From positions 1 to 64,000 of the forward strand of contig NZ_PJCH01000015.1 of assembly GCF_002943565.1 (NCBI RefSeq): DNA of 64,000 nucleotides, in the 5' to 3' direction. Source of the DNA: Hyphococcus luteus (GTDB taxonomy: Bacteria > Pseudomonadota > Alphaproteobacteria > Caulobacterales > Parvularculaceae). This document shows, in pieces, positions 37,511 through 59,913 of this stretch. Position numbers and translations under genes: made by a program. Position 1 is the stretch's first letter. The number at the start of each line of letters is the position of its first letter. Below the pieces are notes generated by a model. That model searched no databases, had not been told where the DNA came from, and saw nothing but the letters and a program-made list of their open reading frames with translations.

Positions 37511-38490
37511 CAGGCGGGCTCTCTTGCTCGCATGGCGGCGAGCGCGTCGTCGAGAATATTCGCCGAGCCCATGCTGGCGTTTTCGGACAGGAACCGACGC
37601 CAGGCCCGCGCCCCCGGCGCGCCGTGATAAAGCCCGAGCATGTGGCGCGTGATGGAATGGGGCCTGACGCCCTTGTCGAACTCCCGCTTCACATAGGCCG
37701 ACATCGCCCGCACCACATCTTCGCGCGACAGCGCCGGCGCGGTCTCGTCGAAGATCAGCTCATCCACCGACGCCAACAGATAAGGCGCGCCATAGGCGGC
37801 GCGGCCGAGCATGACGCCGTCGAAGTCTTCGGCGAGCGCGGCCGCATCGTTCATAGTCTCGATGCCGCCATTTAGAACAATCGTCAGGTCCGGCCGCGCG
37901 GCTTTCAGGCGCCGGACAAGATCGTAATCGAGCGGCGGGATGGTGCGATTGTCTTTCGGCGACAGCCCTTCGAGCCAGGCCTTGCGCGCATGGACAATAA
38001 AAACCTTGCAGCCGGCGCCGGCGACTTTTTCGACAAAGCCAAAAAGACTTTCCTCCGGGTCCTGATCGTCTACGCCGATGCGGCATTTGACAGTTACGGA
38101 AATTTTTACCGCCGCCTTCATCGCCGCGACGCAGCCGGCGACGAGATCGGGCTCTTTCATGAGACACGCCCCGAAAGCGCCCGACTGCACCCGGTCCGAC
38201 GGACAGCCGACATTCAGGTTGATTTCATCATAGCCAACCCCCCCGCCGATCCGCGCCGCTTCGGCGAGTTTTTCAGGGTCCGAGCCGCCGAGCTGCAGGG
38301 CGACAGGATGCTCGGCGGGGTCGAAGCCGAGCAGATAGTCCCGGTCGCCGTGAATGGCCGCATCCACAGTGATCATCTCCGTATAAAGCCGCGCGCGCTT
38401 CGTCATCAGCCGGTGAAAATACCGGCAATGGCGGTCCGTGCCGTCCATCAACGGCGCGACGCAGAACTTATGCGTTTGATTTTCTTGCAT
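37510..38490 (-). CDS. dusA: tRNA-dihydrouridine(20/20a) synthase DusA
   Basis: 326 residues, FMN-dependent TIM barrel. FCVAPLMDGTDRHCRYFHR at the N-terminus, NLNVGCPSDRVQSGAFGACLM with the catalytic Cys near residue 98, VKCRIGVDD, ARKAWLEGLSPK and MLGRAAYGAPYLL are the DusA-type signatures. It reduces uridine 20/20a in the tRNA D-loop. The gene is intact. Its leader and first codons recur near 57.88 kb, which matters because the 5' end of dusA is a known integration target of genomic islands. Confidence 0.93.
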   Translation of the reverse strand: MQENQTHKFCVAPLMDGTDRHCRYFHRLMTKRARLYTEMITVDAAIHGDRDYLLGFDPAEHPVALQLGGSDPEKLAEAARIGGGVGYDEINLNVGCPSDRVQSGAFGACLMKEPDLVAGCVAAMKAAVKISVTVKCRIGVDDQDPEESLFGFVEKVAGAGCKVFIVHARKAWLEGLSPKDNRTIPPLDYDLVRRLKAARPDLTIVLNGGIETMNDAAALAEDFDGVMLGRAAYGAPYLLASVDELIFDETAPALSREDVVRAMSAYVKREFDKGVRPHSITRHMLGLYHGAPGARAWRRFLSENASMGSANILDDALAAMRAREPA

Positions 38491-38556
38491 TTTTTCTTTT
38501 CGGACATCAAAGCAAAGACGACCTTATGCACATCTATGCGTATCTGCACAAATTCG
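38491..38556 (-). repeat. dusA leader, copy 1 of a duplicated segment
   Basis: The about 66 bp upstream of the dusA ATG. Shares with 57887-57953 the block GACATCAA(A/G)GCAAAGACGAC (20 of 21 bases) and, further out, an inverted repeat around GCATAGAT (minus strand TTGTGCA ... TGCATAA, one G-T pair). The homology continues into the first 12 dusA codons (26 of 36 bases). Confidence 0.7.
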
Positions 38557-38665
38557 CCCCACTTGGCGCCGATAGGGATTTCGACGCAGGCTGCTGCAAA
38601 TAAGGAAGCTGACCCGTTGCGCCTAGATCGTTGAAACAGCCTTTTCGACGCCCTTCCGCGCTTTC

Positions 38666-39907
38666 CTAAAAATACTGGCGAAGCTGGATATAGAGTTTTT
38701 TCGGCTGCTCGAAATAGACATTCGCGCCGGCGGTGAGCGCAACGCCGCCGAATTCGGTGTTCACGGGCCCGATAGGCAATTGCGCGCCGGCGACAAGTGT
38801 GAGGTTTTCGTTCAATGAATAGGTCGCCTGGATAAGGGCGTAAAAGCTCGCATCGTTGAGGTTGGCGATCAGGGTCGGGCTGATTTCGAGCAGCGGGCTC
38901 GCCTGCAGCTGCGCCCCGGCGGCGAAATAATCGCGCCCCGTGTCGAAGACCTGCCCGCGCAAGAGGCGGTCGACGAGATCGACCGGGAGCGCGTCGAGAG
39001 AATAACGCTTCTCCGGCAGGCCAAAGCCGTTCCGGTAATATTCGGCGAAATAGGTGACGTCGCGTCCAGCGATCTTGCGTGCGTTCGAAATATTAGCGAG
39101 CGCCGACACCGTTTCCTGACCGTCTACGAAAGTCGGAATGACTTCCGCGTTCCAGCTCGCCCCGCCAAGCGAACCGGCGACGGCGAGCCCGGCGACCGTG
39201 TCGCCGTGATCGCGTGCGACGAGCATGGCCGTCTGCAACGAGCCGACCCGCCTGCGGTAATGGAGGGCGAAGGAACTCGCCTGCGAGGTCAGCGGCCCGC
39301 CGCGGCGCTCCGGTCTTGGAACAATGACGGCCTGCAGATCCGAGCCGTCGTCAAAAAGATATTGCCCGTAAAGCATGTCCGCGCCGGGCTTGTATTCCGT
39401 GTCCGTCGCCTCCGGCGAAAACGGATCGAAAAGGTCCATCGGATGGAAGACGAATCCCGCCCCCCAGGTGAGCGCCTGCCGCCCCGCCCTGACGACAAGA
39501 TGCGGGCCCGTATAGCTGACAGAAAGCCGATCGATCTTGTGGAAAGCCGAAAGCCGGCGCCCGTCCGCGAGCGTGTCGTCAAGATCCCACCAGGTGAGCG
39601 GCGGCGCAGCCGGAAAAAGGCCGAGCGCATCTTCATCCGCCGCAAGGCCCGGCGCATCGCCCGCGTCGAAGCCCGCCTGATAAGCCAGATCGAAACTCCA
39701 TGCACCTGCGCGCGGGGCCCATGTCAGCCGCGCATCGCCGAGAACATCGTTGCGGCTCTCCGAGCCCAGACTCGCCGACAGGCTGTCCTTGCTTTCGCTC
39801 GCATAAACGTCCTGCAAAAGAATCCGGCCGTGCACGGGCTCCGCCGAGACGGGGGCGCCGACTCCCGCGAACGCCGTAGCAAGGATTATGGCGGCGAGCG
39901 CGCGCAC
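38666..39907 (-). CDS. Outer-membrane beta-barrel protein
   Basis: 413 residues. Signal peptide of about 22 residues (LAAIILATAFAGVGAPVSA). The rest is a succession of amphipathic strands with alternating aromatic girdle residues, and it ends LYIQLRQYF, the terminal phenylalanine expected for outer-membrane barrels. The central part (VVRAGRQALTWGAGFVFHPMDLFDPFSP) resembles DUF1302-type proteins. It lies 7 bp downstream of an ABC ATPase on the same strand, so it belongs to the same export operon as its outer-membrane partner (inference). Confidence 0.75.
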   Translation of the reverse strand: MRALAAIILATAFAGVGAPVSAEPVHGRILLQDVYASESKDSLSASLGSESRNDVLGDARLTWAPRAGAWSFDLAYQAGFDAGDAPGLAADEDALGLFPAAPPLTWWDLDDTLADGRRLSAFHKIDRLSVSYTGPHLVVRAGRQALTWGAGFVFHPMDLFDPFSPEATDTEYKPGADMLYGQYLFDDGSDLQAVIVPRPERRGGPLTSQASSFALHYRRRVGSLQTAMLVARDHGDTVAGLAVAGSLGGASWNAEVIPTFVDGQETVSALANISNARKIAGRDVTYFAEYYRNGFGLPEKRYSLDALPVDLVDRLLRGQVFDTGRDYFAAGAQLQASPLLEISPTLIANLNDASFYALIQATYSLNENLTLVAGAQLPIGPVNTEFGGVALTAGANVYFEQPKKLYIQLRQYF

Positions 39908-39913
39908 CCTTGG

Positions 39914-40615
39914 TCAGGCCGCCGCGCCGTCGCGGCGTTCATCGGAGGAAACGCGCCCGTCGGTGATGACGATATGCCGGCGCGTGCGGGCGATGACGCG
40001 CTGGTCGTGGGTCGCCATTAGGAAGGTGACCCCGGAGCTCTTGTTGAGATCCGACATCAAGGTGATGAGGTCTTCGGCTGTTTTCGTATCGAGATTGGCG
40101 GTCGGTTCATCGGCGAGCACGATCGCCGGCCGGCTCGCGAGCGCGCGGGCGACGGCGACGCGCTGCTGCTGGCCGCCCGAAAGCTGCGACGGGCGGCGCT
40201 TTTCGAGCCCTTCGAGCGCCACCGCCTTCAGCATCTCCACCGCCCTCGCCCGGCGCTCCTTATGCGGCGTTTTCATCAGTTGCAGGATGAATTCGACATT
40301 CTCCGCCGCCGAAAGCACCGGGATAAGATTATAGGCCTGAAAGATAAACCCTATCTTGCGCAGTCTAAGATCGGCGAGCGCATTGTTTCCGAGACTCGTG
40401 ATCGCGACGCCGTCGACGCGAACCTCGCCCTCGCTCGGCCGGTCAAGCCCGCCGAGAATATTGAGCAGCGTTGTCTTGCCCGAACCGGACGGGCCCGCGA
40501 GCGAGGCGAAATCACCCTCCTCGAGCGCGAGGTCAAGGCCGCGCAGAGCGGGAACATCAATCTGCCCCTGCCGGTATTTCTTGGCGACGCCCTGGCATTC
40601 GACGATTACACTCAT
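39914..40615 (-). CDS. ABC transporter ATP-binding protein, LolD/MacB type
   Basis: 233 residues: Walker A GPSGSGKTT near residue 40, Q-loop IFQAYNLIP, signature LSGGQQQRVAVARAL near 143, Walker B IVLADEPTANLD, H-loop MATHDQ. The sequence type is that of ATPases paired with FtsX-like permeases that drive lipoprotein release or mechanotransmission rather than substrate translocation. Followed 15 bp upstream by the two permeases. Confidence 0.93.
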   Translation of the reverse strand: MSVIVECQGVAKKYRQGQIDVPALRGLDLALEEGDFASLAGPSGSGKTTLLNILGGLDRPSEGEVRVDGVAITSLGNNALADLRLRKIGFIFQAYNLIPVLSAAENVEFILQLMKTPHKERRARAVEMLKAVALEGLEKRRPSQLSGGQQQRVAVARALASRPAIVLADEPTANLDTKTAEDLITLMSDLNKSSGVTFLMATHDQRVIARTRRHIVITDGRVSSDERRDGAAA

Positions 40616-40630
40616 AACGCCTCCTTCTTG

Positions 40631-41854
40631 TTACGCGCGCGCCATCGCCATGACAGGGCTGACATGCGCCGCGCGCCAGGCCGGCCATAGCGAGGCGCAA
40701 ACCCCGAGCGCCCAGATGATGAAGCTGTACCGGACAAAATCGCTTATATCGATCGAGAGATATAGCACCCGTCCGGCGCCGACGAGCTCCGCGCCGCGCC
40801 CGAGAAAACCGAGGTCCAGTCCGCCCGGAAAAGCCATGACGCTGAGCACGGCGAACGCGGCGCCAATGACGACGCCGATGCCGATCAACATGGTCGATTC
40901 AAGCGCGACTTCCATCAGTACAAGCCGCGGGCGCATGCCGAGCGCCTGAAACAGGCCGAATTCGCGCGTTCTTTCAAAGACGGCCATCAATTGCGTGTTG
41001 ACGATGCCGATGGCCATCATGGCAAACATCACCCCAAGCCACATCATGATGAATTCGTTGAAAAACGTGCTGACCGCGTAAGCGAGCGGCTTCAGCGTCT
41101 CCCACGACTGGACGTCGAGCGCCGGCGCCGCCGCCCTGAGCTTGTCGACAAGCGACGGCAACGCCTCAGCATCCGAGGAGTCGAACACGATTTCGGATAT
41201 GCCGCTTCCCGCGCCGATGAGCTTTTGCGCCGGATCGAGCCCGGTGAAGACAAATTCGTCCTCGATCTGTTGTGACGCGGCGTAGACGCCGACGACTTTG
41301 AAGGCGCGCTCGGCGAGCTCGCCCTTCGTATCCTGAACGAGCACCACGACGCGCTTGCCGACGCGGGTCTTAAGGCGGCTCGCGAGATTGCGGCCGATGA
41401 CGATCCCGTCGTCTTCGGCGTTTTCGAGATAGCGGCCTTTCGAAACCTTGTCGGGCAGGACGGACACCGCGCGCTCTTTCGCCGGCGCAACGCCCGTCAG
41501 CGTGATCGGCAGCGTCCGGTATTCGCTTTGCATGATCGCCGCGACACGCACGCGCTCCGCATAGGCTTTGACGGCGTCCGATTTTAGAATATCGGCGAGC
41601 GCGCCTTCAAGCGGCGCCATCCGGTTGGCGATGGTCGGATCGTCGAGATAGCCGGCGGCGTGGATCTGGCCCTCGCCGGTCATCATCTTCTGGGTCGTGT
41701 CGCGGCTGCTCGCGGACCAGGCTTCGAGCAGGACGGCGAAGACGAGGATCGACCACAACCCGACGCTGACGACCAGCACAGTGATAATCGTGCGCCGCGG
41801 ATTGCGCCAGAGACTGCGCCATGCGAGCGGCAGAAGGAGTTCAAGTTTCTCCAT
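40631..41854 (-). CDS. FtsX-type ABC permease (subunit 1)
   Basis: 407 residues: an N-terminal transmembrane helix (about 20-42), a periplasmic domain of about 210 residues, and three C-terminal transmembrane helices with the FtsX motif VFERTREFGLFQALGMRPR near residue 285. MacB/LolC/E topology. It overlaps the stop of the other permease (TGATG), so the two are made together and probably form a heterodimer with the ATPase at 39.9 kb. Confidence 0.9.
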   Translation of the reverse strand: MEKLELLLPLAWRSLWRNPRRTIITVLVVSVGLWSILVFAVLLEAWSASSRDTTQKMMTGEGQIHAAGYLDDPTIANRMAPLEGALADILKSDAVKAYAERVRVAAIMQSEYRTLPITLTGVAPAKERAVSVLPDKVSKGRYLENAEDDGIVIGRNLASRLKTRVGKRVVVLVQDTKGELAERAFKVVGVYAASQQIEDEFVFTGLDPAQKLIGAGSGISEIVFDSSDAEALPSLVDKLRAAAPALDVQSWETLKPLAYAVSTFFNEFIMMWLGVMFAMMAIGIVNTQLMAVFERTREFGLFQALGMRPRLVLMEVALESTMLIGIGVVIGAAFAVLSVMAFPGGLDLGFLGRGAELVGAGRVLYLSIDISDFVRYSFIIWALGVCASLWPAWRAAHVSPVMAMARA

Positions 41855-43074
41855 CAGGCGGCCCTCATCGCTGAAACCGGTTCAAGCCGGCGCACCCGCG
41901 CATAGGGAACGAGTCCGGCGAGGCCGATCGAACAGGCGATCGCCAGCGGGCCGGCGAGCGCCGTCGTCCAGTTGAGATCGGGATAAAGGGTCGACGGCAT
42001 GTTCCATTGGCTGAAAAGCGCCTCGGCGCCGGAAAAGACGAGGCCGCGCCCCTCGACCCAGGCGGTGATCCCCGCCCCGAACGCTATGCCGAGCCCCGCC
42101 CCTATGCCGGCGAGAAACAATAGCTCCAGCCAGACCATGGCGCCGATCTCGGAAGGCCGCATGCCGATCGCCATCAGCATGCCGAATTCGCGCGTCCGCT
42201 CGAGCACGGACATAAGGAGCGTGTTGAGAATGATGAAAACGACGACGACGACGAGGCTCACATAGAGGAGCACGGAAAAACTGGCGTCGAGCATGATGAC
42301 GTCGTGGAGCGCCGGCTCGAGCTCGGTCCAGTTGCGGAGGACGAGCCCCTCTTCTTCGGCGATTGTGCGCAGCTCCGGTAGCGCGTTCTGGATATCCGCA
42401 AGCCGGCGCCCTTTCACCGCGATCATATTCGCCTCGCCCTCCATCGCGAAAATCGACTGGAAGCGCGAAATCGGGGTTTCGATCACCTGCCGGTCGATTT
42501 CCGGCGCGCCCGTCGCGAACACGCCGACGACGGTCACGATATCGGCGGCGACCGACCCGTCGCGGGCCGCGCCCAGCATGGTCAGTTCGTCGCCGACCTT
42601 CAGTTTCAGGTTTCGCGCAAGACCGGCGCCGATCACCGTCACGCCGTCGTCGCCGGGTTTGAGATACCGTCCCTCCTTGATCGATGCGTCGAGGGTTGAG
42701 ACCTTTGTCTCTATAGACGGATCGACGCCGATGACGGCGCTTCCATAACTGCGCGGCCCGTTGGAGAGAATGACGTAAGTCAACGCGCGCGGCGCAGCGG
42801 CGGTGACCGCCTCCAGCGTCTCAAGGCGCGCGGCCAGCGCGTCCGGCTCGTCGATCGCCTTTCTGAGGGAGGGGTCGTCCGCATAGCCTTCGGGCTGAAC
42901 CTGCGCGAAGCCGTCAAGAAGACTGAGCACATTCTCTTTCATCGCGCTGTAGCTTCCCTGCTGCAATGCGAGGAGAAATATCGTGATGGCGCTTGCAAGC
43001 ACGATCGATATGAGGCTCAGCGCCGTTCGACGCGGCTGACGCCAGATGTTTCTCCATGCCAGCGCAAAGAGCAT
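41854..43074 (-). CDS. FtsX-type ABC permease (subunit 2)
   Basis: 406 residues with the same topology as the neighbouring permease and the same motif (VLERTREFGMLMAIGMRPSE). The periplasmic domain differs, consistent with a heterodimer of the LolC/LolE kind. Starts 3 bp after the stop of the LolA-like gene. Confidence 0.9.
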   Translation of the reverse strand: MLFALAWRNIWRQPRRTALSLISIVLASAITIFLLALQQGSYSAMKENVLSLLDGFAQVQPEGYADDPSLRKAIDEPDALAARLETLEAVTAAAPRALTYVILSNGPRSYGSAVIGVDPSIETKVSTLDASIKEGRYLKPGDDGVTVIGAGLARNLKLKVGDELTMLGAARDGSVAADIVTVVGVFATGAPEIDRQVIETPISRFQSIFAMEGEANMIAVKGRRLADIQNALPELRTIAEEEGLVLRNWTELEPALHDVIMLDASFSVLLYVSLVVVVVFIILNTLLMSVLERTREFGMLMAIGMRPSEIGAMVWLELLFLAGIGAGLGIAFGAGITAWVEGRGLVFSGAEALFSQWNMPSTLYPDLNWTTALAGPLAIACSIGLAGLVPYARVRRLEPVSAMRAA

Positions 43075-43077
43075 CAG

Positions 43078-43827
43078 TCAGCGCCTCGGATTCTGGAGGT
43101 TCGACAAGGTGAACAGATATGACGGCAAGTCGATATTGAAATCGGCGGAAGACGTTTCAATGCGCGTCCATTTTTCCGGCTCATCCGCAGGCCGCATGAC
43201 CATGACGAGAGGATAGTCGCGCCCGCCAACCTCGCCGACCTTCTCCGTCGTCATTTCACGAACGACTTTCATGTCCTGATCGTAATAAGTCTCGGCGAGC
43301 ATCACGCCGTCTTCGCGCACCTTGACGACGAGCTTTCCCCAGACGACCGGCGCATCGGGTTTTGGGATCGCCTCGATTGTGTAGATCTTGTCGCCGCCGG
43401 TTTCTTCGGTTTTGACGAGCTTATGCGTGTATTCGGTCAGAATGTCGTCGGCTTTGGAGAGATCGTTGTAGGAAAAATCAGAGCCCATCCAGCTCTGCGC
43501 CAGCATGCTGGCGGGCAGCTTGATCACCTGATTGAGCTTGGGATTGTAGATCCATGTCCCCTTATCGGTTTTCAGCGTGGCGTTGCCGGCGTCTTTCGCC
43601 GGCGCAGTGAAGCGCACCAGCGCGAAATCGTCGCCTTGCGTCCAGGCCTTCATGCTCATCGACCGTTCCCAGTCGGGCCGGTGAACGGTCATGGTGACCT
43701 CACTGTCCGAACTCTTTGCGCGCCAGTTGTCGAAGGCGGCGCGCAACAGTGCGTCGGCGTCGGCCTCCTGCGCGCGAACCGCGGTGGAGAAAAGGGACAA
43801 TATGCAGATGAAAGCAAGAATGCGCAT
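43078..43827 (-). CDS. Periplasmic LolA-like outer-membrane lipoprotein-sorting protein
   Basis: 249 residues from the ATG that opens a signal peptide (RILAFICILSLFSTAVRAQ). The mature part matches the LolA/LolB-like fold of the family found next to FtsX-type transporters: WTQGDDFALVRFTAPAKDAGNATLKTD, GTWIYNPKLNQVIKLP, SWMGSDFSYNDLSKADD. Such proteins shuttle lipid-modified cargo across the periplasm. A much longer open frame upstream is the opposite-strand shadow of the TetR gene. Lies 5 bp downstream of tetR on the same strand. Confidence 0.85.
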   Translation of the reverse strand: MRILAFICILSLFSTAVRAQEADADALLRAAFDNWRAKSSDSEVTMTVHRPDWERSMSMKAWTQGDDFALVRFTAPAKDAGNATLKTDKGTWIYNPKLNQVIKLPASMLAQSWMGSDFSYNDLSKADDILTEYTHKLVKTEETGGDKIYTIEAIPKPDAPVVWGKLVVKVREDGVMLAETYYDQDMKVVREMTTEKVGEVGGRDYPLVMVMRPADEPEKWTRIETSSADFNIDLPSYLFTLSNLQNPRR

Positions 43828-43832
43828 GGCGT

Positions 43833-44444
43833 TTATCCTTTCGCTGCAGCAAGGCCTTCGAAAAGGGAGCTTAGAAAGCGCTCGACATATCGACGCGGGT
43901 CGAAGCTCCGGTCGAGCCAGTATTGGAGAAAGAGCCCGTCGATCGCGCCGACCAGCATGGCCGCCACCGCTTCGGCGTCGACCTCTCGTCTGATTTCTCC
44001 GGCTTTCTGGCCGGAGTCGATGATCGCCGTCACTTCGGCCCGGTAAGCGACATATAGCTCGCGCATCACCGCCGAGAAGCGCTCGCGCGTGCCGGCCTTC
44101 GCGGCCGCGGCCCAGACTTCGAGCGTGACCGGATAAAGCGCAATGTGGTCGATCAGCGCATTCACGGAAGTTTCGGCGAAGGCGAAAAGCCGGGCGTAAG
44201 CGCTCGTCTCCTCTTCCATACGCTGGGCGCCGTCGCCCACCAGCGAGCCGAGGAACCATTCGAAGACCCCGTAAAAGAGGTCCTCCTTGTTTTTGAAATA
44301 ATCGTAGAGCGACCCTTTGCTGACGCCCGCCGCAGCGGCGACGTCGTCCATGGAGGTGGCGTCGTAACCGGCCTCAGCGAAGCAACTGGACGCGGCTTCG
44401 AGGATCTGAATGCGTTTGGCTTCCCGATCGACGACGCGGGCCAT
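43833..44444 (-). CDS. TetR/AcrR-family repressor
   Basis: 203 residues. The N-terminal HTH is clear: AGYDATSMDDVAAAAGVSKGSLYDYFKNKEDLF at about 26-60; the C-terminal domain is an effector-binding helical bundle (TetR_C family not assigned). A 34-bp palindrome begins 10 bp upstream of its ATG. It heads the operon for the LolA-like protein, both permeases, the ATPase and the barrel protein, and would repress it and itself. Confidence 0.9.
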   Translation of the reverse strand: MARVVDREAKRIQILEAASSCFAEAGYDATSMDDVAAAAGVSKGSLYDYFKNKEDLFYGVFEWFLGSLVGDGAQRMEEETSAYARLFAFAETSVNALIDHIALYPVTLEVWAAAAKAGTRERFSAVMRELYVAYRAEVTAIIDSGQKAGEIRREVDAEAVAAMLVGAIDGLFLQYWLDRSFDPRRYVERFLSSLFEGLAAAKG

Positions 44445-44453
44445 GGCGCAACC

Positions 44454-44487
44454 TCAATAATGACCGACTGGTCGGTCATTATTGAGC
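44454..44487. promoter_or_regulatory. TetR operator palindrome
   Basis: Perfect 16-bp arms CTCAATAATGACCGAC / GTCGGTCATTATTGAG around TG. The inner GACCGAC/GTCGGTC core is the classic type bound by TetR/AcrR repressors. It lies directly upstream of the tetR start, where it would overlap the promoter. From 44488 to 44781 (about 290 bp) I see no gene. Confidence 0.85.
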
Positions 44488-45199: not shown

Positions 45200-46369
45200 A
45201 TGACACAGACGATGCTCTCCGCAGACCAGGTCAAGCCAGGCGCCCAGGCTGTTCTTTCCCGGGCGGATTTCGATCACCTCATCACCGTGCTGCAGGCGGA
45301 AGGCTATGACGTGATCGGCCCCACAGTCGACAACGGCGCCGTCGTCTATCAGGAAATCGATAATGCGGGCGCGCTTCCCGAAGGCGTCGCAAGCCGTCAG
45401 GCCGCCGGGCGCTATCGTCTTGAGAAACGCGCCGACAACGCCCTGTTCGGCTATATCGCCGGGGCGCAATCCTGGCGGCCCTATCTTTTCCAGCCAAGCC
45501 GCACGGTGTGGCGGGCGGAAAAATCCGGCGACGAGCTTTCCTTTACGGAGCCCGAAGAGCCTGCGCCCAAAATGGCGTTTCTCGGCATGCGCGCCTGCGA
45601 GCTTGCCGCGATCGAACTACAGGACCGCGTCTTCATGAACGGCGATGCGCCGGACCCCGATTACGCCGCACGCCGGTCGGGGGCGCTCTTTATCGCGGTG
45701 AATTGCGGCGAAGCCGGCGAGACCTGTTTTTGCGTCTCCATGGATACAGGGCCCAAAGTGACCCGCGGTCACGATCTCGTCCTGACGGAGCTCATTGCGC
45801 CTGACGCGCATGATTTTCTCGTGGAGATCGAAACCGAGGCCGGCGCCGAGATCGCACGCAAGCTGCCCTTGCGCGCGGCTGAGCCGCAGGAGGTCGGGCG
45901 CGCCGACGCCATCCTCGCCGAAACGGCGCAGTCCATGGGGCGCGCGCTCGACACGAACGGGCTGAAAGAGATCCTGCAAGACAATCAGGACGCGCCGCAA
46001 TGGGGCGACGTCGCCGAGCGGTGCCTTTCCTGTGCAAATTGCACCCTCGTCTGTCCGACCTGTTTTTGCAACACCACAGAGGATGTGACCGCCCTCGACG
46101 GCGAAAGCGCCGAACGCCGACAGCGCTGGGCGTCATGCTTCAATCTCGATTTTTCCTATCTCCATGGCGGTCCAGTCCGGCCTTCCGTCGAGGCGCGCTA
46201 TCGCCAATGGATGACCCACAAGCTCGCCCATTGGATCGATCAGTTCGGCGACAGCGGCTGCGTCGGCTGCGGGCGCTGCATTTCCTGGTGCCCCGCATCC
46301 ATCGACATCACGGAAGAAGCGGCCGCATTGCGCCGTCATGCGGAAGAGGCTGACAATGGTGAAAATTAA
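45200..46369 (+). CDS. hydB: NiFe hydrogenase beta subunit (4Fe-4S, HydB/AsrA-like)
   Basis: 389 residues. Two tandem ferredoxin-type cysteine clusters at the C-terminal end: [16 protein letters not shown] near 275-290 and [12 protein letters not shown] near 350. The N-terminal about 260 residues are the AsrA/sulfhydrogenase-beta domain. In group 3b enzymes this subunit passes electrons between the gamma flavoprotein and the hydrogenase core. First gene of an about 10-kb operon; the ribosome site is weak (CCAGGC). The frame overlaps the next gene by 14 bp. Confidence 0.88.
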
Positions 46370-47674: not shown

Positions 47675-47678
47675 TCTT

Positions 47679-49749: not shown

Positions 49750-50195
49750 AGGGCCTTGTGATTGGCGTCGGCAATGCCGACCGGGGCGATGACGCGGCCG
49801 GCCCCGTCACCGCCGAAGCGGTCGCCGCCGCAGCGCCGCAGCTCGACGTGATGCTCTGCCGCGGCGATCCGGCGGAATTGATCGACGCCTTCTCTGGGCG
49901 GCGCCGGATCGTCATCATTGACGCCTGCGCAAGCGGCGGCGCTCCCGGACAGGTGCAACGCTTCGAGGCGCATAGATCGCCCCTTCCCGCCTGTTTCGGC
50001 GAAATCTCCACCCACGGCGTCGATCTTGGCGCCACGATCGAGATGGCGCGGGCGCTCTCCGGCTTGCCGGATAGGTTGATTGTCTACGGAATAGAAGCGG
50101 GCAGCGCCGAGCCCGGCGCGGCGCTGACGCCGTCCGTCGCGGAAGCGAGCCGCCGCCTCGTCACGCAAATCCTCGATGAATTCAGCCGGGAGTAG
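49746..50195 (+). CDS. Hydrogenase maturation protease
   Basis: 149 residues, HyaD/HybD/HycI fold. Nickel-sensing residues are placed in [23 protein letters not shown] and STHGVDLG, matching the Glu/Asp-Asp-His set. It trims the C-terminal peptide of the large subunit. Its ATG overlaps the large-subunit stop by 4 bp, which fits a dedicated protease for this hydrogenase. Confidence 0.88.
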
Positions 50196-50209
50196 AGGAA
50201 AACCATCTC

Positions 50210-50473
50210 ATGCATGAAGCCTCTTTGATGAAGAGCCTGATGGCGAAAATCCTGGACGTCGCGGAAAAGGAAGGCGCAAAGCGCATCACAGCCGTTGAGG
50301 TCTGGCTCGGCGCGCTGTCGCATATGACGCCCGGCCATTTCCGCGAACATTTCAACGTCGCCGCCAAAGGGTCCATCGCTGAAGGTGCAGAACTGGCCAC
50401 GGAAGTGTCGGAGGATATTGACGACCCGAATGCGGAAACCATTCTTTTGAAAAGCATCGAAACCGAAGAGTGA
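50210..50473 (+). CDS. hypA: HypA-like nickel chaperone lacking the zinc domain
   Basis: 87 residues, against about 113 for the family. The N-terminus is canonical: MHEASLMKSLM (nickel ligand His2) and the next strand set is typical (ITAVEVWLGALSHMTPGHFREHF). After GSIAEGAELATEV the sequence goes directly to DDPNAETILLKSIETEE, which corresponds to the last residues of HypA; the two CxxC pairs that bind zinc are absent and there is no cysteine at all. The deletion is in frame and the surrounding protein is well preserved, so it may still function. Start follows GAGGAAAA. Confidence 0.82.
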   Translation: MHEASLMKSLMAKILDVAEKEGAKRITAVEVWLGALSHMTPGHFREHFNVAAKGSIAEGAELATEVSEDIDDPNAETILLKSIETEE

Positions 50474-52780
50474 ATGACGCAGATTTTGACGCAGCCTGAA
50501 GAAGTGACGCGCCTGCGCCTTGTCGTGCAGGGCGTCGTGCAGGGCGTCGGATTTCGCCCCTTCGTCAGCCGGCTTGCGCATGATCTCTCCCTCGCCGGAC
50601 ATGTCTATAATTCAAGCGAGGGCGTCTCGATCGAAATCGAGGGACCTCGTGACAACGTCGGCGCGTTCGTGCGGCGCCTGCGCGAAACGCCGCCGCCCAG
50701 CGCCGAAATAGACGCGGTCCGCCTTTCTTCGATTCCTGTTCACGGCGATGTTTCCTTCAAGGTCCGGCGAAATTGCAGCGATCAATCGCTTACGACCCGC
50801 GCCCCGCCGGATATGGCGATCTGCGATGATTGCCTTGAAGAGATAAGGGATCCGTCCAATCGGCGTTACGGTTACCCGTTCACCAACTGCACAAATTGCG
50901 GGCCGCGATACAGCATCATCGAAACGATGCCTTACGACCGCGCCGCCACGACCATGCGCGATTTCGATCTGTGTGCGCGCTGTGCCGAAGAGTATAGCTC
51001 CCCGCATGACCGGCGGTTTCACGCCGAACCCATCGCCTGTTCCCATTGCGGGCCCGAGATCGCCTTGCTTGATAAAGAGCGCGTCTGTCTGGCGCGCGGC
51101 GGCGAAGCGTTGGACCATGCCGCGCGCTTTTTGCGCGAGGGCGCCTGCGTCGCGGTGAAAGGCGTCGGCGGCTTTCATTTGCTGGCGAACGCCTGTGACG
51201 AGGCGGCGATCCGCGCCTTGCGCGAAAAGAAAAAACGTCCCGCGAAACCCTTCGCGATCCTCGCCGGCCTCGACGAGGCCCACGCGCTGGCGCATGTCAG
51301 TCAGGCTGAAGAAAGGCTCCTCGCCTCCGCCGCCGCGCCGATTGTCCTCGTGACGCCCAAAGCCGATGCGCGCTTCGCGGCCAATCTTGCGCCGAATGCG
51401 CCTGAAATCGGAATCTTTTTGCCTTATACGCCGCTGCACCGGCTTTTGTCCGACCGGGCCCAATGTCCGTTCGCCGCGACAAGCGCCAACGGAAGCGGCG
51501 AGCCGATCATTTTTGACGAAACCCGGTCCTACGACGCCCTGTCGGAGCTTGCCGACTTCGTTCTGTTTCACAATCGGCGCATTCGCCGCCCCATCGACGA
51601 CGCCGTCATGCGCGTGATCGACGGCGCGCCGCAAGTCTTGCGCCTGGGGCGCGGCCTCGCTCCCGGCGAGATTAAACTCGGCGGCGCATCCGAAGCGTCC
51701 GCCATCTTGGCGCTTGGCGGTCATCTGAAAACCGCACCCGTAATCGTAACCGGAGAACGCGCCATTCTGGGGCCGCATGTAGGCGACCTTGGCTCGCTTG
51801 CCATGGACGACGCATTTCACGCCTCAATCGAAGGACTTCAGGATCTCAATGGCGTTAAGCCCGAGATCATCGCCTGCGATCAGCATCCGGACTATGAGAC
51901 GACGCGCTTCGCAGACGATCTCGGACTTCCCGTCATCCCGGTTCAGCACCATCACGCGCATATCCTCTCCGTCATGGCGGAGCATGGACTCGAACCGCCG
52001 GTTCTCGGCGTCGCCTGGGACGGGGCTGGGCTCGGGCCCGACGGAACGATCTGGGGCGGCGAGTTCCTGCATATCGAAGATGGAAGCTGGACGCGCATCG
52101 CCCGCCTAGTTCCGTTTCGCCTGCCCGGGGGGGAAAAGGCGATGCGCGAGCCGCGCCGGAGCGCTTTAGGCGCGCTCATGGCCATGAACGCCGATGTGAA
52201 CCGGATGGCGCCGGCCTTTAACGAAAAAGAATTTTCGCTCCTGCAGCAAATGGTGAAGCAGGGCCTGCACTCGCCGGCAACGTCAAGCGCCGGACGCTTG
52301 TTCGATGTCTGCAGCGCCCTGCTTGGATTATGCCTGAACGCGAGCCATGAAGGGGAAGCGGCGATGACGCTGGAGCGCTGCGCCCGCCTCGCCCGCGAGG
52401 GAGACTGCCGCCCTTATCCTTTCGATACCGTCAAAAGCGGCGCGCCCGGCCTCCTCGATATTGACTGGCGGCCCATGCTGGACGCGATGATCGGCGATCT
52501 TGAAGCACGCCGCCCGGCCCCGGCGATAGCCCGCGCCATCCATGAAACCTTCGCCGCCATGATTGCGGGCGCGGCGACCATCGCCGGGATCAGAACCGTC
52601 GCCCTGTCGGGAGGATGTTTTCAAAACCGCCTGTTGACGGAATGCGCGCTGCGGCGCTTACGCGCGCAAGGCTTTCAGGTTTTCATCAATCGCGCCGTCC
52701 CGCCCGGCGATGGCGGCCTTGCGCTCGGTCAGGCGCTGTGGGCGCGCGGACAGGCGTTGGAGAGTGCGGCATGTGTTTAG
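50474..52780 (+). CDS. hypF: Carbamoyltransferase HypF
   Basis: 768 residues, full length. N-terminal acylphosphatase domain (VVQGVVQGVGFRPF), two zinc fingers (CDDCLEEI ... CTNCG, and CARCAEE ... CSHCG), a YrdC-like domain (about 195-370) and a Kae1-like carbamoyltransferase domain (PVQHHHAHILSVMAEH, GVAWDGAGLGPDG). It makes the thiocyanate/cyanide ligand precursor of the iron atom from carbamoyl phosphate, passing it to HypE. Starts at the base after hypA ends; overlaps hypC by 10 bp. Confidence 0.96.
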   Translation: MTQILTQPEEVTRLRLVVQGVVQGVGFRPFVSRLAHDLSLAGHVYNSSEGVSIEIEGPRDNVGAFVRRLRETPPPSAEIDAVRLSSIPVHGDVSFKVRRNCSDQSLTTRAPPDMAICDDCLEEIRDPSNRRYGYPFTNCTNCGPRYSIIETMPYDRAATTMRDFDLCARCAEEYSSPHDRRFHAEPIACSHCGPEIALLDKERVCLARGGEALDHAARFLREGACVAVKGVGGFHLLANACDEAAIRALREKKKRPAKPFAILAGLDEAHALAHVSQAEERLLASAAAPIVLVTPKADARFAANLAPNAPEIGIFLPYTPLHRLLSDRAQCPFAATSANGSGEPIIFDETRSYDALSELADFVLFHNRRIRRPIDDAVMRVIDGAPQVLRLGRGLAPGEIKLGGASEASAILALGGHLKTAPVIVTGERAILGPHVGDLGSLAMDDAFHASIEGLQDLNGVKPEIIACDQHPDYETTRFADDLGLPVIPVQHHHAHILSVMAEHGLEPPVLGVAWDGAGLGPDGTIWGGEFLHIEDGSWTRIARLVPFRLPGGEKAMREPRRSALGALMAMNADVNRMAPAFNEKEFSLLQQMVKQGLHSPATSSAGRLFDVCSALLGLCLNASHEGEAAMTLERCARLAREGDCRPYPFDTVKSGAPGLLDIDWRPMLDAMIGDLEARRPAPAIARAIHETFAAMIAGAATIAGIRTVALSGGCFQNRLLTECALRRLRAQGFQVFINRAVPPGDGGLALGQALWARGQALESAACV

Positions 52781-53013
52781 CCATACCGGGACGCGTTCTC
52801 GACATCTCAGGCGCCGCTTATTCGCGCAGCGCGCGCGTCGACTTTGGCGGCGTGATCAAGGAGGCAAGCCTCGCTTTAGCGCCGGAGGTGCAAATCGGCG
52901 ATTACGTCATCGTTCACGCCGGCGTCGCGATCACCCGCCTCGATGAAGAAGCTGCGCAAAGAACGCTCGACGAAATCGCGAACTTAACCGCTCTCGACCA
53001 GGCACCGGATTGA
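52771..53013 (+). CDS. hypC: HypC/HybG-type hydrogenase assembly chaperone
   Basis: 80 residues beginning MCLAIPGRV, the invariant N-terminus whose Cys2 binds the iron being loaded. Carries iron with CO and cyanide from HypD to the large subunit. Lies inside the end of hypF (10-bp overlap) and 4 bp ahead of hypD. Confidence 0.93.
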   Translation: MCLAIPGRVLDISGAAYSRSARVDFGGVIKEASLALAPEVQIGDYVIVHAGVAITRLDEEAAQRTLDEIANLTALDQAPD

Positions 53014-53017
53014 TTGC

Positions 53018-54121
53018 ATGAGATATGTCGATGAATTCCGCGCTGTAGACAGCGTTCAGCGTCTTGCCGAAGAGATACGGAAGACCACAATTCAACACTG
53101 GTCTGTCATGGAAGTATGCGGCGGACAGACCCATGCAATCATGCGCTACGGCCTTCAAGAGCTGCTTCCCGAAGAGATCACGCTGCTGCACGGGCCGGGC
53201 TGTCCTGTTTGCGTAACACCGCAATCCTATATCGACAAGGCGATCGAAATCGCTCTTCTCCCCGATGTCGTGTTCTGCACCTTCGGCGACATGCTGCGCG
53301 TGCCATCCGGCGACAGCGACCTTGCGCAGGCAAAAGCGCGCGGCGGCGACGTGCGCGTCGTTTATTCGCCGGTCGATGCCGTTGAGGTTGCACGCGTCAA
53401 TCCAGACAAAGACGTCGTCTTCTTCGCTGTCGGTTTCGAAACGACGGCGCCGGCGAACGCGCTTGCCGTCAGGCGCGCCAAAGACGAAGGCCTGACGAAT
53501 TTTTCGCTTCTCGTTTCGCAGGTGCTCGTGCCGCCGGCCCTGCTGGCGCTCCTGTCCCAGCCGGACTGCAGGATCGACGCCTTTCTGGCGGCGGGCCATG
53601 TCTGCGCCGTCGCCGGGCTCGACGCTTATCATGCGATCGCCGAAAAACATCATACGCCGATTGTTGCGACGGGCTTCGAGCCTGCGGACATTTTACGCGG
53701 CGTCCTCCACGCCGTCCGCCAGCTCGAGGCGGGCGAGGCTTTCGTTGAAAACAGCTATGAACGCGCGGTCGCGCAACAGGGAAATAAAACCGCGCAAGCC
53801 CTCATGATGGAAATATTCGAGATCGCGCCGAAGGAATGGCGCGGCATGGGAGTCATCCCGGCGAGCGGTCTGGCCTTGAACGCCGCGCACGCCGATTTTG
53901 ACGCCGAACGCCGTTTCGGCGCCATTGGCGCGGCGCCCCGGCGCGACTGCGGCTGCATCAGCGGGGCGATCCTGCAGGGCGTGAAGCGTCCCCCGGATTG
54001 TCCGCGATTTGCAACAAGCTGCACGCCGGACAATCCCATCGGCGTCACCATGGCCTCTATGGAAGGCGCCTGCTCGGCCTATTACCAATATCGCGAAGGA
54101 GGCTCCGGCCATGAAAGATGA
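53018..54121 (+). CDS. hypD: Hydrogenase formation protein HypD
   Basis: 367 residues. Conserved cysteine motifs are all present: MEVCGGQTHAIMRYG, HGPGCPVCVTP and the C-terminal RDCGCISGAIL plus FATSCTPDNPIGVTMASMEGACSAYYQY region that holds the 4Fe-4S cluster and thiol pair. It assembles the Fe(CN)2CO unit with HypC and HypE. Overlaps hypE by 11 bp. Confidence 0.95.
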   Translation: MRYVDEFRAVDSVQRLAEEIRKTTIQHWSVMEVCGGQTHAIMRYGLQELLPEEITLLHGPGCPVCVTPQSYIDKAIEIALLPDVVFCTFGDMLRVPSGDSDLAQAKARGGDVRVVYSPVDAVEVARVNPDKDVVFFAVGFETTAPANALAVRRAKDEGLTNFSLLVSQVLVPPALLALLSQPDCRIDAFLAAGHVCAVAGLDAYHAIAEKHHTPIVATGFEPADILRGVLHAVRQLEAGEAFVENSYERAVAQQGNKTAQALMMEIFEIAPKEWRGMGVIPASGLALNAAHADFDAERRFGAIGAAPRRDCGCISGAILQGVKRPPDCPRFATSCTPDNPIGVTMASMEGACSAYYQYREGGSGHER

Positions 54122-55160
54122 GCCCGCCGGCCCCCATTGCGCGATCAACGCCGGCGACGGCGCGCTTATTCAACTCGGCCATGGCGGCGGCGGAAGCCTG
54201 ATGCGCGACCTGATCGGCAAGATCATCGCGCCGGCGATGGACCAGGCGAGCCTCGACATTGAAAGCGACGGCGCGGCGGTTTCGCTCGGCGGACCGGCCG
54301 CTTTCACGACGGATTCCTACGTCGTCAGCCCGCTGTTTTTCCCCGGCGGCGATATCGGTTCGCTCGCGGTTAACGGAACCGTCAATGATCTGGCGATGTG
54401 CGCGGCCGAGCCGTCTTATTTGAGCGTCTCCTTCATCATCGAAGAAGGACTTTCCATCGAAACCCTGAAACGGGTGGCGCAATCGATCGGCGCAGCGGCG
54501 AAAACCGCCGGCGCGCGCATCGCCACTGGCGATACCAAAGTCGTCGAACGCGGCAAAGGCGACGGGCTTTACATCAACACGGCCGGCGTCGGCTCTGTGA
54601 AGGCGCCTTTCGCGCCGGGGCCCAGCCGTCTGCGCCCCGGCGACGCCATCATCCTCAGCGGCGACATCGGCCGGCACGGCGTCGCCGTGATGGCCTCGCG
54701 CGCGGAACTCGACTTCACCCCGCCTATAAGAAGCGACTGCGCGCCTTTATGGGATCAGGTGCGCGCGCTCATCGATGCAGGCGTCGAATTGCACTGCCTG
54801 CGCGATCTGACCCGCGGCGGCCTTGCCGCCGCGCTTGTGGAAATTGCGCAAAGCGCCGGTTGCGAGATTGCCGTCGACGAACCGGAAATCGCGGTCAGCG
54901 AGCAAATCAGCAGCGCATGTGAACTTTTGGGGCTTGATCCGATCCATGTCGCCAATGAAGGCCGGTTCATCGCGGTCGTTCCCGCCGAACACGCCGATCT
55001 GGCGGTTGCAACGCTTGGATCGGCGAGCGCCGGGCAAGCGCGGCGCATCGGCGAGACGACGCCGGCTCATCAAGGCGGGCGCGCCCTTATTCGCAGCGCT
55101 TACGGCGTGAAACGTCAGATCCGCACGCCCAAGGGAGAACAGTTGCCGCGCATTTGCTGA
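54111..55160 (+). CDS. hypE: Hydrogenase maturation protein HypE
   Basis: 349 residues, PurM-like. HGGGGSLMRDLI near residue 24 and FTTDSYVVSPLFFPGGDIG near 65 build the ATP site; the C-terminus LPRIC carries the Cys that accepts the carbamoyl group from HypF and is dehydrated to thiocyanate. ATG at 54111 has GGAGG a few bases upstream. Last gene of the hydrogenase operon; hypB is not found here. Confidence 0.95.
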   Translation: MKDEPAGPHCAINAGDGALIQLGHGGGGSLMRDLIGKIIAPAMDQASLDIESDGAAVSLGGPAAFTTDSYVVSPLFFPGGDIGSLAVNGTVNDLAMCAAEPSYLSVSFIIEEGLSIETLKRVAQSIGAAAKTAGARIATGDTKVVERGKGDGLYINTAGVGSVKAPFAPGPSRLRPGDAIILSGDIGRHGVAVMASRAELDFTPPIRSDCAPLWDQVRALIDAGVELHCLRDLTRGGLAAALVEIAQSAGCEIAVDEPEIAVSEQISSACELLGLDPIHVANEGRFIAVVPAEHADLAVATLGSASAGQARRIGETTPAHQGGRALIRSAYGVKRQIRTPKGEQLPRIC

Positions 55161-55172
55161 CGCCCCTGCCGC

Positions 55173-56174
55173 CTAAAACCGAACCGAACGCAGCTCTTCA
55201 GCATCGTCTTCGGGACATGATGAATTGACCGGCAGGCCGGCCCCCAGTTCAAATCCGCCAAGATGCTGAATAGCGGGAACAATTCTTATATCCCAATGCC
55301 GATAGCGGCTGCCGGCGCTGTCCGCCGTCCCTGATTCAATAACGAAATTATACGGGGGATCATCGAGCACAGCATTCAAATGTTGCAGGGCGCGCTTCAG
55401 CGCGCCAGCAAGTTCCCGGATTTCCAATTCGGCAAGTTCGGAAAAACACGCCTGATGCCGTCGAGGATAAATCCTTTGTTCGAAAGGACCGGCGGCGGCG
55501 AACGGAACGACAATCAGAAAGTTATCGGTCTCCTCCACCACTCTCAGACCGCTTTCCAATTCACGCTGCACTTCTTCGCAAACGACACATTGACGGTGGT
55601 TTTCATAGTGGCGGCGCGCCCATGCCGCTGACGCCGAAAGACGCGGCGGGACCATACCGGTCGCGACGATCTGCGAATGAGGGTGGCCGAGCGATGCGCC
55701 GGCCCGGCGCCCGTGATTTCGAAAAACAATAACCGCTTTGACGTTTGGCCGCTTCATCAGATCGGCATATCGCCGCAAATAGGTCCGAATAACATCTTCA
55801 ACCTCTTCAACCGCCAATGCAGACAGATCGGCGTTATGCCGCGCGGTTTCGATAATGACTTCGTGATAACCGCCGCCCGCTATTCTGTCCGGCGCTCCCT
55901 CGAACGCCGGCGCCTTGCTAGCGCCAGAAGAAACCATGGGATACTTATTCGCGACAACGCGCGTCCGCCATCCCAAAGAACCGTCCAGCGGGCTTTCCAG
56001 AAGGATATCCGTCAGCATATTCTCATTGCCCGGACAAAACGGACATTCCGGATCTAATGCCCGGCCGTCGCCTGTCGAGGCGTGCCCGGAAAACCGCACA
56101 TGAGGCCGCCGCTTCCTTTCAGGCGCGACAAGAACCCATTCGCCTGTGGTTCTATCCCGTCGGTATTCACTCAC
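55173..56174 (-). CDS. galT: Galactose-1-phosphate uridylyltransferase (GalT)
   Basis: 333 residues from a GTG start preceded by GAGG (the frame is open a few codons further up with TTG). HIT-superfamily transferase with zinc cysteines CPFCPGNE near residue 46 and the nucleophile motif GHPHSQIVATG near 170. The family swaps UMP or AMP between a nucleotide sugar and a hexose 1-phosphate. Next to a trehalose synthase, it may act as an ADP-sugar or UDP-sugar exchange enzyme. Convergent with hypE, 12 bp apart. Confidence 0.82.
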   Translation of the reverse strand: MSEYRRDRTTGEWVLVAPERKRRPHVRFSGHASTGDGRALDPECPFCPGNENMLTDILLESPLDGSLGWRTRVVANKYPMVSSGASKAPAFEGAPDRIAGGGYHEVIIETARHNADLSALAVEEVEDVIRTYLRRYADLMKRPNVKAVIVFRNHGRRAGASLGHPHSQIVATGMVPPRLSASAAWARRHYENHRQCVVCEEVQRELESGLRVVEETDNFLIVVPFAAAGPFEQRIYPRRHQACFSELAELEIRELAGALKRALQHLNAVLDDPPYNFVIESGTADSAGSRYRHWDIRIVPAIQHLGGFELGAGLPVNSSCPEDDAEELRSVRF

Positions 56175-56271
56175 TCGTAGCGCCTCACACAAGGGACCCC
56201 GCGCCGCGCCGCCCTCTTTCGGAAAGCGCCCGCCCAGATCCCGGCCGCCGCATATTCGTCGAGCGCAAAGG

Positions 56272-57558
56272 TCAAACGCCGGCGTCTCCCCTCAAGCGAA
56301 AATGCGGTTCAAACGCCCCAACGAGATCCAGCCAGTCTTCCGCCAGCCGCGTAAGCAGGAACCGTGAACGCACGGACTGTTTCGCATTCGCGCCGATGCG
56401 TTCCCGCAGTTTTTTGTCTTTCAAAAGACGAACAATCCTCTCGGCCGCCTCTTCAACGCTTTCAACAAGAAATCCGTTGACGCCGTCTTCTATCTGACGG
56501 CGAATGCCGCCAACGTCTCCGCCGATGACCGGAACGCCTTTCCACATCGCCTCCGTCACCGTTAAGCCGAACCCTTCCCGCAAGGATTTCTGCAACACCA
56601 CCGCAGCGCGCTGTTGGAGCGCATTCACAAGCGCGGAATCCGGAACCGACAGAATTATGATGCGCTCCTCAGCGCAGTGACATAAGGACTCAAAGACCTC
56701 TTGCCCCTCCGGATCGTCGGTCGCCACGTTGCCGATCAGAACCAACGTCGCGTCAACTTCTTTCCGGGCGATTTTAAAAGCATCGATTACGCCCTGAGGA
56801 TCTTTCCATTTGTCGAAGCGGGACACCTGAACAACAAGCGGCAGGTCCGTCGGAATGCCGTAATGCGCAAACCGGTCCGCGATTTCGTCCTCGCTCAATT
56901 GTTTATTTGTCGTGGAAAAGGGATTGATCGCCGGCATGATAAATCGCTGAGGCGTCGTCAGTTTTTGCGCATATTCAGGCAGAGAAAAAACAACCGCATC
57001 ATATTTCTCGATGAACGGCGCGAGATATGACCAAAGCTCCTGATTAGGTCTTGTCATATCAACATGACAACGCCATATCCACGGCGCTTTTTTGCGAAAA
57101 TGCCGGATAAGAGGCAAAGGCTGTGGATCGTGAACGATCACAATGTCATGATCGAGATGCATGCGCATCGCATTTTCGAAAACGACTTCCTCATATATAT
57201 CTTGTTTTAACTCGCTAAGATTGATGTCCTCTCCTTGCAGCGCGTTGTGCATTTTTTTTGTAACGCTAAAATAGTCAGGGCGCCCCTCGATGACGCGCCA
57301 TCCGGTTTGGACGCCTGCGGCGTTCATCAGCAATGTCAGTGAAGAGAGAATCTCGGCTACGCCGCCGCCATAATAGGTTGAATTGACATTGACGATATGA
57401 ACGTCGCTGATCTGCTGCGCTTTCTTTTGTATGCGCTCCACCGCTTCCGCACCGATTAAAGGCTCGTAATCCTCGACAGTGATCAACCGATGCCCCGGAC
57501 CGGAATGGGACGCTGGGCCGGCTTCATCACGGGATGCGATTGCTGTGCTGTCTTCCAT
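56272..57558 (-). CDS. treT: GT4 glycosyltransferase, TreT-type trehalose synthase
   Basis: 428 residues, two Rossmann-like halves. VNVNSTYYGGGVAEIL near residue 55, IVIVHDPQPLPLI near 140, WRCHVDMTRPNQ near 163 and the C-terminal KSLREGFGLTVTEAMWKGVPVIGGDVGGIRRQI are the signature of TreT-like enzymes, which make trehalose from NDP-glucose and glucose reversibly. The gene is 97 bp upstream of galT on the same strand, so the two likely form an operon. Confidence 0.8.
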   Translation of the reverse strand: MEDSTAIASRDEAGPASHSGPGHRLITVEDYEPLIGAEAVERIQKKAQQISDVHIVNVNSTYYGGGVAEILSSLTLLMNAAGVQTGWRVIEGRPDYFSVTKKMHNALQGEDINLSELKQDIYEEVVFENAMRMHLDHDIVIVHDPQPLPLIRHFRKKAPWIWRCHVDMTRPNQELWSYLAPFIEKYDAVVFSLPEYAQKLTTPQRFIMPAINPFSTTNKQLSEDEIADRFAHYGIPTDLPLVVQVSRFDKWKDPQGVIDAFKIARKEVDATLVLIGNVATDDPEGQEVFESLCHCAEERIIILSVPDSALVNALQQRAAVVLQKSLREGFGLTVTEAMWKGVPVIGGDVGGIRRQIEDGVNGFLVESVEEAAERIVRLLKDKKLRERIGANAKQSVRSRFLLTRLAEDWLDLVGAFEPHFRLRGDAGV

Positions 57559-57790
57559 ATCGCCTCTGCGCAGTAAAACCGTCTCGCGTTACGCCGCCGC
57601 GAGATCAGCAACTTAACGCCTTTTGGGTTAAGAAAGAAGGCTTGGTTTAATATCTTAGGTTGTGAGAATCGGAAATCGTCGGTTAACGGCGAAGCGTCGG
57701 GCGGAATTCTTCTTGCATATCCGACCCCATATCTGAGGACGCAAACGCGCTGGAACGCCCCTTAAAACTCAGAAATAGTTGAGCCGACAG
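57559..57790. other. Intergenic region upstream of treT
   Basis: 232 bp with no supported gene. It should hold the treT promoter; no clear palindrome or ribosomal site was found other than AGAGGCGAT ahead of treT. Confidence 0.35.
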
Positions 57791-57886
57791 TCAAAATGCA
57801 AGCAAGCGCTCGCTACGGAAGATGACGAACTTCTTTGCGATATGGTCGAGGGCGAGACAGAGTTTATGCGTTTTCTTCCCCTCCAT
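57791..57886 (-). pseudogene. Fragment of dusA 5' end
   Basis: A 31-codon frame whose first 12 codons resemble DusA: MEGKKTHKLCLA against MQENQTHKFCVA in the intact gene at 38.49 kb (26 of 36 bases identical, AAACGCATAA exact). After that the similarity stops and the frame ends. It continues upstream into a leader homologous to that of dusA. Likely a left-over end of an integration at dusA, or a duplicated fragment. Confidence 0.65.
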
Positions 57887-57953
57887 TTTCCCCTTCAGAC
57901 ATCAAGGCAAAGACGACTTTTGCGCAGATCTATGCACATGTGCGCAAAGTCGC
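57887..57953 (-). repeat. dusA leader, copy 2 of a duplicated segment
   Basis: Same orientation as copy 1 at 38.5 kb. GACATCAAGGCAAAGACGAC matches it in 20 of 21 bases, followed by a clearer inverted repeat (minus strand TTTGCGCA ... TGCGCAAA around GCATAGAT). The homology stops at about 57953, where the reading frame of a truncated exported protein begins. Confidence 0.68.
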
Positions 57954-58080
57954 GCACCGGACCGAAGCTCGTAAGGGCGACAGGATGATCCGACGATTGC
58001 GCCGCAAGGGACCATGCGGGCACCGAAGCGGCAGCGAGGCTGCTTAGAACAAGCGCGCGGCGACTCAGACGGTAGTTCAT
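57954..58080 (-). pseudogene. Truncated gene for an exported protein
   Basis: Starts at ATG 58080 with GGGAGAGG upstream and encodes a signal peptide with a twin-arginine start (NYRLSRRALVLSSLAAASVPAWSLAAQ), then DHPVALTSFGPV, after which it runs into dusA-leader sequence and stops. The expected mature protein is missing. This is the right-hand break point of the dusA duplication. The lost gene may have belonged with eda/kdgK in sugar-acid breakdown (inference). Confidence 0.6.
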
Positions 58081-59910: not shown

Positions 59911-59913
59911 GGA

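Follow-up and report, generated by a model that had tools for sequence, protein, structure and literature searches.

The block between 38.5 and 57.9 kb of the window, i.e., of the first 64 kb of contig C7 in a genome of 4.92 Mb, is on balance best explained as one or more decayed islands that an integrase inserted at dusA and that were then rearranged at the outer edge. This explanation was favored because the dusA start is repeated beyond the block in the expected orientation, far above chance, and because dusA is an island hot spot in this genus, where one relative (G016) shows the whole anatomy of such an island. It was also favored because the second dusA start loses similarity within the same core as the right ends of islands elsewhere, and because its position has a chance probability of only about 0.4% and the cargo is rare in the genus. 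The features are listed in Table 1.

Table 1. Features of the window that bear on the origin of the block upstream of dusA
Feature	Position	Strand	Basis
dusA, intact tRNA-dihydrouridine synthase A	37510..38490	-	Translation; 57-84% identity to 80 loci kept
Left copy: dusA codons 1 to ~19 (antisense) and upstream leader; putative attL side	38434..38571	+	Matches to C7:812 kb and G025
Cargo: 413-aa protein without Pfam match; ABC ATPase	38666..40615	-	Protein scans
Cargo: two MacB/FtsX-type permeases (LolCE-like)	40631..43074	-	Pfam (first permease); NCBIfam match below cut-off (second)
Cargo: LolA-like lipoprotein-sorting protein and TetR regulator	43078..44444	-	ORF calls overlap, real starts uncertain
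Cargo: group 3b-like [NiFe] hydrogenase (beta, cNMP-binding protein, gamma, delta, alpha)	45200..49749	+	Pfam, NCBIfam and PDB matches
Cargo: HycI protease, HypF, HypC, HypD (Pfam), AIRS-domain protein taken as HypE	49677..55160	+	Protein scans
Cargo: GalT-like and TreT-like genes	55173..57558	-	GC 0.552 vs 0.62-0.63 in the rest of the block
Right copy: dusA codons 1 to ~12 (antisense) and leader; putative displaced dusA 5' end (attR side)	57852..57957	+	Whole-genome search, alignment
N-terminal remnant (~42 codons) of exported carboxylesterase, cut at the leader junction	57951..58080	-	Comparison with intact G004 gene
Fragment of a sugar-acid operon, truncated on both sides: eda, kdgK and the final 20 codons of a short-chain dehydrogenase gene	58130..59913	-	Protein scans, relatives

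A second dusA start at 57.9 kb

The translation of dusA is a full-length DusA with the N-terminus MQENQTHKFCVAPLMDGTDRH. Its nearest proteins in a collection of named records were labelled Parvularcula sp. (84%) and Parvularculaceae (83%), which places the host in this family of Alphaproteobacteria. The first-pass annotation claimed that the dusA leader and first codons recur near 57.88 kb in the same orientation. This was borne out, as 38,456-38,571 (dusA start and leader) is repeated at 57,852-57,957. A whole-genome search with 38450-38600 found three places, all in the same orientation; the match at C7:57852-57953 was 75% identical (E 1.1e-10). Without the codons, the leader still scored 71, compared to a mean of 15.3 and a maximum of 25 in 500 shuffles. 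The near-identical leader motif of that annotation, GACATCAARGCAAAGACGAC, was found at two sites in the window (38503 and 57898) with up to 3 mismatches allowed, compared to a mean of 0.00 in shuffled sequence (n=100). In the coding part, 6 of 12 residues are identical between the right copy (MEGKKTHKLCLA) and dusA (MQENQTHKFCVA), and the similarity ends at about codon 12, as annotated, exactly where the island ends of relatives start. An ungapped repeat finder returned the pair as merely one of 16 direct-repeat families in 37.5-60.5 kb (35 nt, 83%), and therefore its strength rests on the gapped match of about 100 bases.

The third place, at C7:812592-812712 (76%, E 1.4e-15), lies 755 kb beyond the right copy and was not part of the first-pass annotation. 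A fourth copy was found on contig C19 of a genome of the same genus, G025, as a dusA fragment without a dusA gene. The left copy matches the 812-kb copy over 38444-38571 and the G025 fragment over 38434-38571. The concern that the 57.88-kb copy is a dispersed repeat present many times was justified in that the copy is not unique, but there are three copies in the genome rather than many. Only four copies of this leader type were counted (38.5, 57.9 and 812 kb and G025), since a fragment on contig C451 of G005, though used in training model R2, fell below z 4 against the others. The two other copies in the genome, at 75-76% identity to dusA, are too divergent for recent duplicates. The mutual divergence of the three copies in the genome is about the same as their divergence from the G025 copy (71-79%), which we counted against an island. 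The 21-bp att core is intact in dusA, and only a few core bases could be aligned at 57.85 kb.

The leader shared by these four places showed no significant similarity to the leaders adjoining intact integrases. The idea that it is the left end of the integrase-bearing islands was dropped after a leader-only comparison with 16 relatives gave z values of at most 2.3; a pairwise matrix, in which two separate leader families appeared, also countered it. The matches of the leader model in G012 and G003 are, therefore, probably due to dusA codons. The G025 fragment gave a weak hint of a connection in this matrix (z 4 against G026 and z 5 against G003). A match in G062 (E 0.0026) lies in G+C-rich, coding-looking sequence and was judged to be chance. 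The leader was absent from the plasmid records searched, and its exact 19-bp motif was absent from viral contigs; three viral contigs code for relatives (37-41%) of the G012 integrase. Two readings of the leader remain: either insertions displaced what had been the native leader of this lineage, or the leader marks the left end of islands of another family.

dusA loci and cargo in the relatives

The dusA start was searched in 60 genomes, including our own, and 33 had matches. Twenty stretches were retrieved: 19 with dusA and upstream DNA, and the G025 fragment. The 19 loci comprise 18 from the same genus and one from another genus (G029); their upstream lengths vary and some contigs end early. 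G012 and G016, two of the 18 loci from this genus, had an intact tyrosine integrase adjoining dusA, and five more (G026, G005, G021, G007 and G010) had N-terminal integrase remnants. Islands thus target the dusA 5' end in this genus, as the first-pass annotation had stated for islands and prophages in general, and dusA is an island hot spot. Neither G029 nor our own dusA had an integrase match in the 1.5 kb upstream. Downstream of dusA, TauE-like and FabH-like genes were found at three loci (L047, L048 and L049) and TauE at a fourth (L050), and the upstream content varied among the five relatives' loci with ORFs listed. The block of the window was absent upstream of dusA at all 19 loci. The region immediately upstream of dusA in G029 (L030:1382-13993) encodes a different [NiFe] hydrogenase, together with hypE, hypD and hypF, and follows a leader of the type associated with integrases.

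An island of 43 kb that appears to be complete is present in G016. Its dusA-integrase end is at C6:113.5-114.7 kb and its far end abuts a displaced dusA start: the right end at C6:71,434-71,513 (E 3.2e-5) is followed by dusA codons reading HSSHRFCVAPMM. This right end was found with an 85-bp profile, R1, built from nine sequences that did not include it, and served as an independent check. The profile was searched in 16 genomes, six of which had matches at E<=0.1. In right ends elsewhere, dusA-like codons are kept up to CCATCA and then diverge. The 57.9-kb copy is the mirror image, in that dusA codons and leader are kept and divergence proceeds leftwards within the same core. We take this mirror-image divergence, as read from the alignments, to be the best evidence for a junction made by site-specific recombination.

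The block itself contains the FtsX exporter and the hydrogenase that had been annotated, in the form of MacB/FtsX permeases and group 3b-like [NiFe] subunits. All four subunits of a group 3b hydrogenase (sulfhydrogenase type) are present, including the NAD(P)-binding gamma and the NiFe alpha, and the best PDB match of alpha was Sulfhydrogenase 1 alpha. In contrast to group 3b enzymes, the scores fall below the NCBIfam equivalog cut-offs and a gene for a cNMP-binding protein lies between beta and gamma. HypA and HypB were not recognized among the proteins scanned in the maturation set. A 34-nt near-palindrome (94%) at 44453-44486, just upstream of the TetR gene, is a likely TetR operator.

The cargo is rare in the genus. 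The hydrogenase alpha had strong matches in only two of 27 genus relatives (G002 and G014, 59-62%) and a weak one in G009 (E 8e-10), the exporter permease had only distant matches in the 27 (best E 5e-13, 29%), and TreT had none at E<=1e-30 in the 17 relatives chosen. The first-pass annotation named relatives with the hydrogenase block elsewhere and no dusA fragment as an outcome that would speak against an island. This was partly seen: G002 and G014 carry the related hydrogenase, at about 60% identity, away from dusA and have neither a second dusA start nor a right end. The position of this hydrogenase away from dusA was counted against the island. Relatives of the alpha subunit (48289-49749) were also found on 108 plasmid records, all below 60% identity, with the best matches in Paraburkholderia, Pandoraea and Burkholderia.

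No integrase (PF00589) was found in the block, in agreement with the first-pass annotation, and no recombination or transfer genes were recognized among the block proteins scanned. A tblastn search with the G012 integrase gave no match at 38.5, 57.9 or 812 kb, and the G012 and G016 integrases matched nothing in the 1.5 kb upstream of our dusA at E<=0.01. With filters, the right-end model had no match in the window at E<=1. With filters off, it found the core of dusA itself (E 0.0021), followed by a place at 44.77 kb (E 0.16), which was rejected as a right end within the block, having arms only and no core.

The outer edge and competing explanations

As annotated, the right copy runs into a truncated gene for an exported protein at about 57,951-57,957. 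The gene was identified beyond that annotation as a carboxylesterase, its exported nature being read from the N-terminus and its family from the intact gene in G004. The junction lies at a GCGCA microhomology. In G004 and G008, the esterase gene is intact and follows kdgK and eda; in G004, it precedes TRAP transporter genes (DctP and DctM, by Pfam matches). The dehydrogenase next to these genes has a Pfam match to short-chain dehydrogenases and is kduD-like by operon context only. Four of 17 relatives had a kdgK match at E<=1e-30; the gene lies 696 kb from dusA in G004 and on separate contigs from dusA in G008, G022 and G016. Since the operon is away from dusA in the relatives, 57.95 kb is a breakpoint and not the native flank of dusA, and judging from these gene orders the outer edge implies at least one further rearrangement. 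A search of our genome for the rest of the cut esterase found no orthologue; besides the remnant, it returned five paralogues (28-42%) in frames of 548-573 aa, together with two partial matches that were weak (E 2.6e-5 and 3.5e-4). The expectation that a relative would have dusA joined directly to the 57.95-kb sequence failed, as none of the 19 retrieved loci has such an empty site.

The first-pass reading of a decayed dusA-targeted island is, therefore, upheld in part by the hot spot, the anatomy in G016, the junction in the core and the rare cargo, and weakened by the missing right end, the missing empty site and the breakpoint at 57.95 kb. It is limited further because the block has no integrase, because its leader type differs from the leaders adjoining integrases and because stray dusA starts exist. 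These strays, at C7:812.6 kb and on C19 of G025, both away from a dusA gene, suggest another explanation, in which another island carried a stray dusA 5' fragment, now the right copy, to a secondary site, the block arrived otherwise and the bracket is accidental. The breakpoint within an operon fits this explanation, and so do five further island right ends in this genome without a dusA start. We consider it rather unlikely: if two fragments were placed at random, the probability that one fell in this orientation in the 20 kb upstream of dusA would be only about 0.4%, and insertion at dusA is the more probable origin, given that dusA is a hot spot. A regulatory site or RNA leader of several genes, unrelated to integration, could also explain a leader conserved in four places, and the right copy contains a TTTGCGCA/TGCGCAAA inverted repeat, read from its sequence. 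However, dusA codons form part of the repeat, and both the 812-kb copy and the G025 copy meet an island right end precisely at the core used for integration, which makes a regulatory role very improbable.

The block could also have been stacked up from two or three pieces acquired separately (exporter, hydrogenase and galT-TreT), a possibility that we hold tentatively and rate above the stray fragment. The GC content of galT-TreT (0.552) and of the spacer at 57.56-57.85 kb (0.503) is below that of the exporter (0.622) and hydrogenase (0.63) parts, right ends are stacked at C7:803-826 kb, and the hydrogenase loci of G002 and G014 (20 kb) show no exporter match. Against such a stack, no att-like junction was found inside the block, where the 44.77-kb place was the best right-end hit, and the leader had no significant match to 44.7-45.2 kb.

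Under the decayed-island explanation, a dusA-targeting tyrosine integrase would have inserted one or more islands into the dusA 5' end. Insertion at the core (codons for APMMDGTD) would account for what is seen in the sequence, namely that dusA is intact on one side and that a dusA start and its leader lie on the other. The integrase and the island right end would later have been lost, leaving the block as fixed cargo, and in a later rearrangement the right copy may have become joined, at its outer edge, to the carboxylesterase gene at the GCGCA visible there.

Right ends elsewhere in the genome and known island systems

The right-end model found six places in this genome: C7:803.3, 812.5, 819.6 and 825.9 kb and C2:210.3 and 225.2 kb. 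Five were in the training set; the 225.2-kb end was never included (E 1.9e-5), and the 819.6-kb end was first found by a profile lacking it (E 2.1e-16). The four ends at C7:803329-826000 (L004 and L005) share one orientation and are spaced 9.2, 7.1 and 6.3 kb apart over 23 kb. One of them abuts the dusA start and leader, and no integrase match was found between them. Between these ends lie multihaem cytochrome genes, a set of ECF sigma and TonB-receptor genes, and a TonB receptor with an AraC regulator. The two ends at C2:210320-225274 (L171), also in one orientation, have genes for an ECF sigma factor and FecR next to them. FecR in the C7 array (L005:1572-2660) and the TonB receptors on C2 were read from the sequence. 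The G016 island carries relatives of the C2 sigma (61%) and FecR (49%) genes.

Insertion of dusA-targeted islands is already a known kind of event. In the dusA-specific islands of Acinetobacter and Pseudomonas, as described in the main text of Farrugia et al. (2015; PMC4482086), the arrangement is the same as in G016. Alphaproteobacteria are named there as hosts; Parvularcula does not appear in that main text. According to the same account, these islands target the dusA 5' end, rebuild dusA on one side and leave a 5' remnant on the other, as in the window, where dusA 5' sequence is present at both ends in direct orientation. They have a semi-conserved 21-bp att core, and G012 and G016 are the comparable intact cases in the genus. 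Unlike the islands described there, the window has no recognizable right end, a rearranged outer edge and no dusA-associated tyrosine integrase at the dusA end (block and 1.5 kb upstream), and a related strain with an empty site was absent from the 19 loci of a collection with one genome per species.

CIMEs (cis-mobilizable elements), as outlined in the relevant passages of PMC7563491, carry cargo between att-like sites without a recombinase of their own; the window block, of which only one end is confidently att-like, may resemble them in this. By the definition given there, CIMEs derive from conjugative or mobilizable elements, whereas no transfer genes were recognized among the block proteins scanned and no intact att pair was seen. 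The tandem accretion described in those passages resembles the stacked units of one orientation at C7:803-826 kb, and from the sequence the C7 and C2 right ends look like an accretion of integrase-less modules of this kind. A more speculative idea, which we consider unlikely and place below the stray fragment, is that dusA islands of this family shed their integrases and persist as small cargo modules, dispersed and stacked head to tail, each closed by the same ~85-bp right end with a dusA-like core and maybe moved in trans by the integrases of incoming dusA islands; the window block would then be the copy that stayed at dusA.

These results show that dusA serves as a target of islands in a genus of Parvularculaceae, and the right-end profile, with one independent check, can be used to find decayed islands there that lack an integrase. 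The stacked ends at C7:803-826 kb would permit a test of in-trans mobilization of sigma factor/TonB-receptor modules. Decay of a dusA-targeted island is a likely reason why a hydrogenase with several of its own maturation genes sits upstream of dusA here and not at the other same-genus loci seen.
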